DNA of 55,908 bases from Pseudomonadota bacterium (GTDB taxonomy: Bacteria > Desulfobacterota > Desulfobulbia > Desulfobulbales > SURF-16). The notes beneath the pieces were generated by a model. That model made no database searches. It was not told where the DNA came from and saw only the letters and a list, made by a program, of their open reading frames with translations. Where the stretch lies: NCBI GenBank assembly GCA_018816555.1, contig JAHIVT010000098.1:1-55908 (forward strand), in the 5' to 3' direction. Both the position numbers and the translations under genes were made by a program. Numbering within the stretch: position 1 is the stretch's first letter; each line of letters opens with the position of its first letter. Shown in pieces: positions 52,698 through 54,176 of this stretch.

Positions 52698-54176
52698 ATG
52701 CAGACAACATTTACTTCAAATGTCTTCAAGACGCAGACCACCAAACTCGCCAACACCGAAGAGACGATTGTCAAAGGCGGTCGTGATCTTTTCCCGCTGC
52801 TGCCCAAAGCCCTGGACGGCATCAAGCAGATCGGCGTTATCGGCTGGGGCTCCCAGGGACCGGCCCAGGCCCAGAACTTCCGCGACTCACTTGAGGGCAC
52901 GGATATCAAGGTCAAAATCGGCCTGCGCGAGGGCAGCGCCTCCATGAAGTCTGCCGCGGCCGCCGGCTTCACCAAGGAAAACGGCACACTGGGCGAGATG
53001 TATCAGGTCATCAAGGAATCCGATCTGGTCATGCTGCTCATCTCCGACGCGGCACAGGCGGAGAACTACGAGAAGGTATTTGCCAACATGAAGGACGGGG
53101 CCACCCTGGGCCTGTCCCACGGTTTTCTGCTCGGCTACCTGAAAAGCATAGGCAAGACCTTTCCCAAAAATATTAATGTGATAGGCGTTTGCCCCAAGGG
53201 CATGGGCCCTTCCGTGCGCAGGCTCTATGAACAGGGGAAAAAGGTCAACGGCGCCGGCATCAACTGCAGTTTCGCCGTTGAGCAGGACATCAACGGCAAG
53301 GCCATTGATAATGCCCTGGGCTGGGCGGTGGCGGTGGGCGCGCCTTTTGTTTTCAAGACCACCCTGGATCATGAGTACCGCAGCGATATCTTCGGCGAGC
53401 GGGGCATTCTGCTCGGCGCGGTGCACGGCATCGTGGAACTCCTATACCGCCGCTTTGTCTCCGTTGACAAGATGAGCGAGGAGGAAGCCTTCAGGCACTC
53501 GGTGGAGAGCGTCACCGGCCCCATCAGCAAGACCATCTCCCATGACGGCATCCTGGCTGTGTATGAAAAACTCGATGCCAAGGGCAAGGAAATATTCGAG
53601 AGGGTTTACTCACTGTGCTACGACCCTGCCTTTGAGATGCTGCTTGAGATCTATGACGAGGTGGCCGGCGGCAACGAGATCAGAAGCGTCATCATGGCGG
53701 GCCAGCGTTTCAAACGCTTCCCCATGGGCAAGATCGACGGCACCCGCATGTGGAAGGTGGGGGAAAAGGTGCGGGCCGCCCGGGTGGAGAAGGACATCCC
53801 GCTCAACCCCTTTACCGCAGGCGTCTACTGCGCCACTATGATGGCACAGATCGACCTGCTGGTTGAAAAAGGACATTGCTTAAGCGAGGTATGCAATGAG
53901 TCGGTGATCGAGGCGGTGGATTCACTCAATCCCTATATGCACTTCAAGGGTGTGGCCTTCATGGTTGATAACTGCTCAACCACGGCGCGCCTGGGCTCCC
54001 GCAAATGGGCTCCCCGTTTTGATTATATCCTGCACCAGATCGGCCTGGTGGCCTATGACGAGGGGGCTGCGACAGATACGGCCAAGGTTGAGGCATTCAA
54101 GAACAACATGATCCATGCTGCCATCAAGACCTGCGCCACCCTGCGGCCTTCGGTTGATATCTCCCTGTCTGCGTAA
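52698..54176 (+). CDS. ilvC: ketol-acid reductoisomerase, plant-like class II
   Basis: A second ketol-acid reductoisomerase, 492 residues, clearly unlike the one at 47095. Its sequence follows the plant chloroplast enzyme along its length: [20 protein letters not shown] (nucleotide-binding Gly loop at about residues 46-65), [68 protein letters not shown]-like [20 protein letters not shown], and [10 protein letters not shown] at the end. No transit peptide is present. ATG 52698 follows AAGGAGG with about ten bases of spacing; the longer frame to 52584 has no support. It should catalyse the same step as ilvC. The two may differ in regulation, cofactor or substrate preference. A bidirectional terminator follows. 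Confidence 0.93.

Follow-up and report, generated by a model that had tools for sequence, protein, structure and literature searches.

The window analysed here is the whole of contig C154 (55,908 bases) from a 4.93-Mb assembly in 183 contigs that is 97% complete and 4% contaminated, and it carries two genes for ketol-acid reductoisomerase (KARI), which are listed with their neighbours in Table 1. In what follows, P and E are the two KARI types, G denotes a genome (G000 being that of the window), f a family and g a genus; the order is that of the window genome, taken to be Desulfobulbales. The P reading frame is intact from its ATG at 52698 to a stop codon ending at 54176, the intergenic distance to E is 4.1 kb, and the two genes encode the only KARIs found in the assembly, in which four PF01450 matches fall two to each protein. 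Their GC3 values (0.73 for P and 0.74 for E) are alike, and both deviate from the window mean by less than two standard deviations. The N-terminal part of the chloride channel cut by the contig end matches the end of contig C100. Promoter and terminator site counts in a scan of the window were not clearly above those of shuffled sequence, and for that reason only individually placed hairpins are cited; Rfam gave zero matches at gathering score between 44000 and 55908. A chimeric contig was considered and judged unlikely: P and E lie on one contig also in G001 and G049, and in G004 ilvY is split across the ends of the P contig and the E contig.

Table 1. Genes and signals around the two ketol-acid reductoisomerase genes of the window
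Feature	Position	Strand	Remarks
murJ	44613-46223	-	landmark beside E
mddA-like membrane protein gene	46202-46879	-	landmark beside E; score far under the MddA cut-off
Terminator-like hairpin after E	47035-47062	-	12-pair stem, T-rich tail
E, E. coli-type class II KARI (ilvC)	47095-48567	-	490 aa; NF003557 902 bits, cut-off 713
Second conserved ilvY-E element TTGCGTAAAGTGATTT	48640-48655	+	pattern occurs once in the window
IlvY-operator-like palindrome TTGCATATATTGCAA	48671-48685	.	sole TTGC[AG]N5[TC]GCAA site in the 55.9-kb window
ilvY, LysR-type activator	48818-49705	+	divergent from E; NF008722 401 bits, cut-off 246
Three genes between ilvY and P: 238-aa unknown, 157-aa unknown, 540-aa TPR protein	49769-52582	+	co-directional
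Sole P-upstream stretch clearly common to window and G001	52635-52697	+	
P ribosome-binding site AAGGAGGAG	52682-52690	+	identical in G001 and G004
P, class II KARI	52698-54176	+	492 aa; KARI_N and two KARI_C stretches
Terminator-like hairpin and T run, 9 bp past P	54185-54197	+	consensus match only
TPR gene remnant	54278-54661	-	intact 198-aa version (TPR198) between ClC and P in G004
ClC-type chloride channel gene, C-terminal part	54840-55907	-	cut by contig end; PF00654 and CBS; P-locus landmark

Judged by its sequence, P should be a class II KARI, with about 490 residues, a Rossmann domain, a duplicated knot domain and the metal and catalytic residues. Its best solved relative is the spinach enzyme (1qmg, 690 bits), to which it is 65% identical over nearly the full length. 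In alignment A1 (constant offset 86), the P residues at spinach K252, D315, E319, E492, E496 and S518, the metal, lysine and serine positions, fall in invariant columns. The same is true of R162, S165 and S167, which PMC5940873 gives as the NADPH-loop residues of spinach; the cofactor loop of P reads LREGSAS. Against the NCBIfam model TIGR00465, P scores 209 bits, under the cut-off of 226, and it is also below the cut-offs of the other three NCBIfam KARI models. E, on the other strand, matches NF003557 over its full length and above the cut-off, its best solved relative is the E. coli enzyme (1yrl, 748 bits; 69% identical), and it keeps all nine residues checked, R68, R76, S78, K155, D217, E221, E389, E393 and S414 in E. 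coli numbering. By these features E is predicted to be an E. coli-type class II KARI. The first-pass annotation had described two class II KARIs of different subtypes, the one at 47095 tracking E. coli IlvC, and both genes proved to be real and intact, with E as described. Its view that the copies are not recent paralogues also held, since P and E align at about 30% identity over only some 260 residues and have different best families.

Selection on the two genes was compared with YN00; of the 13 E-only pairs 2 gave no value, as did 1 of the 5 RpoB pairs, and these were dropped. Among the three g1 genomes carrying both types, dN/dS of P was 0.058, 0.019 and 0.021, and ten P-only pairs gave 0.017 to 0.068, values that do not support a relaxed or decaying P in the window. 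The same three pairs gave 0.035 to 0.049 for E, which indicated that purifying selection is similar on both genes. On this sequence evidence, P and E both look functional in the window genome. Elsewhere in that genome, a second acetolactate-synthase-like large subunit is encoded at G000:C119:16249-17871 (426 bits, under the family cut-off).

The occurrence of the two types was then counted across 97 genomes, the window genome included. P was found in 44 and E in 54; exactly one type is present in 88 genomes, neither in 4 and both in 5 (G000, G001, G004, G028 and G049), so that the pairing is indeed unusual, as had been claimed for the window. An RpoB tree was built for 79 of the 97 genomes, 12 having no RpoB match, 4 only fragments and 2 no KARI at all. 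It contains seven phylogenetically independent pairs that differ in E, and P differs in the opposite direction in 6 or 7 of them and never in the same direction (sign test for mutual exclusion, p 0.016 to 0.031). P is broken into three pieces in different frames with a stop in G034 and reduced to a 54-residue remnant in G069, and E is intact in both. A resident lost where a newcomer is present, as seen in the rarity of double carriers and in the seven pairs, is one hallmark of xenologous displacement. As a separate observation, adenosylhomocysteinase (AhcY; window positions 18126-19421) is apparently also represented by two subtypes in the order: in part of f4, in f13, f14g22 and G023, matches run only from residue 122-146 or so onward, at 73 to 79%, in a longer frame.

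The P tree comprises 105 rows after removal of 21 named rows that duplicated G rows, its named relatives being the best 80 of 177. All 49 rows from the order form a single clade (support 100/100), within which f1, f2, f4, f5, f11 and f13 are each coherent and f8 joins f15; a single member each of f3 and f7 falls outside its family in a poorly resolved fork. The E tree, with 52 of the 54 E bearers, five sequences from outside the order and E. coli, looks different. It consists of two clades, the first holding f1, f4, f5, f11, f12 and f15 with one outside-order f74 sequence at its base and the second holding f8, f14 and f15 beside outside-order f74 and f95 sequences, and its backbone is poorly resolved. 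One-clade tests were run for f12, f15 and f1: f12 (p-AU 0.009) and f15 (p-AU 2e-52) were rejected as single clades and f1 was not rejected (p-AU 0.116), and transfers of E within f1 are accordingly not proven. Through f12 and f15, then, the tree of the incoming gene conflicts with the species, a second hallmark of displacement. In the first clade, E distance per unit of RpoB distance drops from 1.33 for the 177 pairs inside families to 0.69 for the 564 pairs that cross them; the corresponding values for P are 1.05 and 0.87. These data indicated that E is the moving gene of the two, usually together with ilvY. The suggestion of transfer in the first-pass annotation thus stands for E, whose tree breaks families at the order level; an acquisition of P from plants is rejected by the P tree.

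The regulator ilvY was found in 42 of the 54 E bearers (none was detected in the other 12) and in 1 of the 43 other genomes, there as a contig-end fragment; G044, one of the bearers with no ilvY detected, has a fragment that adjoins ClC. The palindrome pattern TTGC[AG]N5[TC]GCAA is present in 19 of 32 ilvY-E intergenic regions and missing from 13, compared with 3 of 37 P upstream regions. The second pattern, TTGCG[TG][AC]AA[GT]TGA[AT]TT, is present in 25 of the 32 and missing from 7, compared with 0 of 37. Both patterns had been derived from 16 regions inspected first and were then counted in the 32. According to PMC5002191, the E. coli operator O1, ACgTTGCAAaaaTTGCAAtGT, is a palindrome of the same type, and acetolactate is given there and in PMC6483228 as the inducer of E. 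coli IlvY/ilvC. With its divergent genes and operator-like DNA, the window arrangement appears to match an ilvY-ilvC regulatory pair, a resemblance at the level of DNA, and from it we infer that IlvY may control E in the window. One ilvY departs from the rest of its genus: in G003 (7% contamination; L327, G003:C339), an 85% E fragment adjoins an ilvY of just 49-50% identity, and ilvY identity is 77-95% in G001, G002 and G005 of the same genus. This odd fragment is possibly contamination or a second E type.

The two types also meet at one chromosomal site. P and ClC share a contig in 11 of the 44 P genomes (f1, f4g33, f5g36, f7 and f8) and are always at most 4 kb apart. For E and the same ClC, 13 genomes have both on one contig, and in 8 of them the distance is under 10 kb; contig-end evidence places E beside ClC in G004, G044 and G059. 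E is near ClC in f1 (g1, g6, g7 and g9), f4g43, f14g22 and f15g29, that is, in at least four families. In G025 of f5, it is 7.4 kb from a partial ClC match carrying a stop. The E-ClC distance is 0.6 to 2.4 Mb in G031, G058, G079 and G082 (f11, f12 and f4g35) and 18 kb in G005, so arrival of E in situ is not general; in f1 g4, g5 and g8 the two genes are on separate contigs, and other genomes are split over contigs. The gene order is ClC-P-mddA-like in G054 of f4g33, ClC-ilvY-E-mddA-murJ in f1 g6, and ClC-P-other genes-ilvY-E-mddA-murJ in the window and G001. This comparison places the insertion of ilvY-E between P/ClC on one side and mddA-murJ on the other, within the f1 clade to which the window genus belongs. 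In G049 of f15, P, ilvY and E are immediate neighbours. Between ilvY and ClC, the E-only genome G005 has a 567-aa open reading frame (L310, 14912-16615 counted on the reverse strand) whose product resembles an acetolactate-synthase-type enzyme on visual inspection.

The DNA before P is altered in the window. The P start and the last 65 bp or so upstream are conserved in the sister genome G001 (89% over 65 bp). Farther 5', the region conserved in G001 and G004 and two genes are absent, and 52582 is the last position of a TPR gene; for c36 and c91, the window offers no good match. With the join of the TPR gene to P, these two genes disappeared along with most of the sequence upstream of P. Since this region is lost and P now trails the TPR gene in a row headed by ilvY, and since the three intervening genes are tightly spaced, P may be co-transcribed by read-through from the ilvY/TPR side. 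The TPR gene itself (50960-52582) has 540 codons in the window and 170 in G001 (L105 8370-8882).

Taken together, the above results point to xenologous displacement of a core biosynthetic enzyme, caught while P and E coexist under purifying selection, as the probable history of the locus. P would be the old resident KARI of the order and E an incoming ilvC that usually travels with ilvY and the shared control region; because these come along, E would arrive as a self-regulated unit. As IlvY senses the KARI substrate acetolactate in E. coli, weakening or loss of P would lead to induction of E. If both enzymes behave like their types, acetolactate would be held down by P, and E would remain silent until the flux outgrows P or P is gone. 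Such buffering by an IlvY-switched E would make loss of P harmless, so that replacement would be directed toward E. The buffering step is inferred, and any division of labour between the enzymes would follow from differences in affinity and induction among published enzymes.

Within this history, P could have been kept throughout in g1 or taken back, and for G000, G001 and G004 the choice is nearly even, with parsimony and distances mildly favouring re-acquisition. An E-only ancestor of the three genomes would have regained P, at the ClC site, from a relative near g2/g3; we give this about an even chance, and it is compatible with displacement across the order. On the RpoB tree, the double carriers of g1 form one clade nested among E-only members of f1, so that one gain replaces about six losses of P by a hand count; if P was regained, this position speaks against a simple transition from P to E. 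The P distance between g1 and g2/g3 is 0.26-0.29, compared with 0.46-0.52 for RpoB, a ratio of about 0.55 that lies below the interquartile range of P within families (0.70-1.18), although four-fold sites are near saturation and the P rate may have shifted on the f1 stem. Relative to other families, the divergence between g1 and g2/g3 is 0.68 for P, 0.83 for ClC, 0.89 for RpoB and 0.91 for AhcY, and that of c4 is likewise higher than that of P, at about 0.9 (one g2 sequence, by hand). Against re-acquisition, the place and orientation of P next to ClC are those seen in g2/g3 and f4g33, as plain retention predicts, and ClC tracks the species without a mosaic 3' end; no recombination breakpoint was seen in ClC. 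The TPR198 gene occurs without P in the E-only g1 genomes G003 and G005, which have no mutual match beyond this gene, and because of that mismatch an insertion and a deletion of P look alike at the empty site.

A stable division of labour, in which P serves as high-affinity housekeeping enzyme and E as a lower-affinity, acetolactate-induced overflow enzyme, so that keeping both is adaptive in the genus, is possible, though we regard it as less likely than not. PMC5940873 gives a Km for acetolactate of about 10 µM in spinach, rice and barley versus 250-500 µM in E. coli, and the cofactor loops of P and E in the window are those of the respective types. Purifying selection on both genes fits this explanation, as does operator-like DNA at E and none at P in the window, and different roles of this kind (a high-affinity P and a substrate-induced E) are plausible. 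It sits poorly, however, with the 88 of 97 genomes that make do with exactly one type, with the broken P of G034 and the remnant of G069 beside an intact E, and with the loss of most of the conserved upstream region of the window P. A bolder form of the displacement reading, which we consider rather improbable, takes ilvY-ilvC as a self-installing replacement that runs one way across the order, repeatedly and partly in situ, with g1 having regained P as a low-Km partner on the ilvY-side transcript. Since IlvY senses the substrate of the step under its own control, failure of the resident KARI would itself bring up the newcomer, and loss of the resident would be silent.

Differential loss from an order ancestor that held P and E near ClC, each lineage shedding one of them, is disfavoured, and we think it quite improbable. 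It could account for the adjacent P-E pairs in two families (f1, and f15 with G049) and for E at the ClC locus of P in several families, but it does not explain two distinct E clades, the rejection of f12 and f15 as single clades, or distances of E between families that are too small for those of RpoB; nor was E found near ClC in f12, f11, f4g35 and f1 g4/g5/g8, many of which are draft contigs. That this bacterium recently received the gene from a plant has next to nothing in its favour beyond the 65% identity of P to spinach, since P nests in the clade of its own order, from which the plants are separated by a long stem (0.49), P-type KARIs occur across many bacterial phyla, and P resembles E and the neighbouring genes in GC3.

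The P tree thus refutes a plant origin of the window gene. Its likeness to the chloroplast enzyme, claimed in the first-pass annotation, is correct as an identity to spinach and implies no descent from plants, and the label 'plant-like' is misleading for P. A profile scan led by the spinach enzyme found 177 relatives in species genomes, the best 80 of which (61-66% identity) come from Spirochaetes, Chloroflexi, Planctomycetota, Latescibacterota, Myxococcota, Alphaproteobacteria, Desulfobulbales and others; as far as these sequences tell, P is an ordinary, widespread bacterial KARI long carried in the order. The two plant sequences form a clade of their own beside Spirochaetes and the order with weak support (81/89, 89/39), and the 105-row tree does not single out which bacteria are closest to the plant enzyme. 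Among 395 genomes from the phylum, P was found in 5, all from this order, and E in 17, 12 from the order and 5 from outside. Class I is the usual KARI type in the phylum (142 of 198 above the cut-off); a further 39 match the class I model below its cut-off, the E types of this order among them. Two KARI types per genome occur elsewhere as well, since a further KARI, short and class I-like, was strongly matched in 6 of the 24 named P genomes that were searched. Among the literature matches listed, which take in a minority of the subscription papers, no title concerned a plant-type KARI in these bacteria, and the one paper listed for KARI together with this bacterial group dealt with isoleucine pathways of E. 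coli. A P-type KARI of about 61% identity was seen on a linear plasmid of Streptomyces sp. NBC_01450 (L332, 8995-10458), next to an MFS transporter and with several transposases near, and two further Streptomyces plasmid records carry one; one idea is that it serves as a spare, possibly inhibitor-resistant target.

Several known systems resemble parts of this locus. Like the chloroplast KARIs (spinach 1qmg/1yve, rice 3fr7), P has a duplicated knot domain and a seven-residue NADPH loop with R, S and S, at the identity given above; in contrast to them it is bacterial, falls in a separate clade and is missing six consecutive residues that both plant proteins have. The E side recalls E. coli ilvY-ilvC in its IlvC, its divergent LysR activator and the TTGCA...TGCAA palindrome between the genes, and differs in lying in a Desulfobulbales-like genome with a second KARI and in the element TTGCGTAAAGTGATTT. 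Displacement in situ was reportedly described by Omelchenko et al. in 2003. With other cases of displacement, P and E share an incoming xenolog, loss of the resident and a mosaic locus, and they differ in that the intermediates (coexistence, a broken resident, a remnant and a replaced gene) are visible here. The term xenologous gene displacement, including displacement in situ, is used in PMC1274311, and PMC2964296 explains the patchy occurrence of the phosphoglycerate mutases dPGM and iPGM in bacteria by displacement and lateral transfer. Those two enzymes are non-homologous, whereas P and E are distantly homologous and a regulator usually comes along with E.

The P/E pair is therefore an unusually well-staged case of a known process and not a new type of system. 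It offers a natural series for the swap of a core enzyme, from the old gene only, through both genes, the old one broken and a remnant, to the new gene only. It also suggests a testable reason for the direction of the swap, namely the substrate-sensing activator that usually accompanies the new gene. With the label corrected, the 'plant' KARI becomes a broad bacterial lineage, which bears on the origin of the plant enzyme and matters also because plant KARI is a herbicide target.
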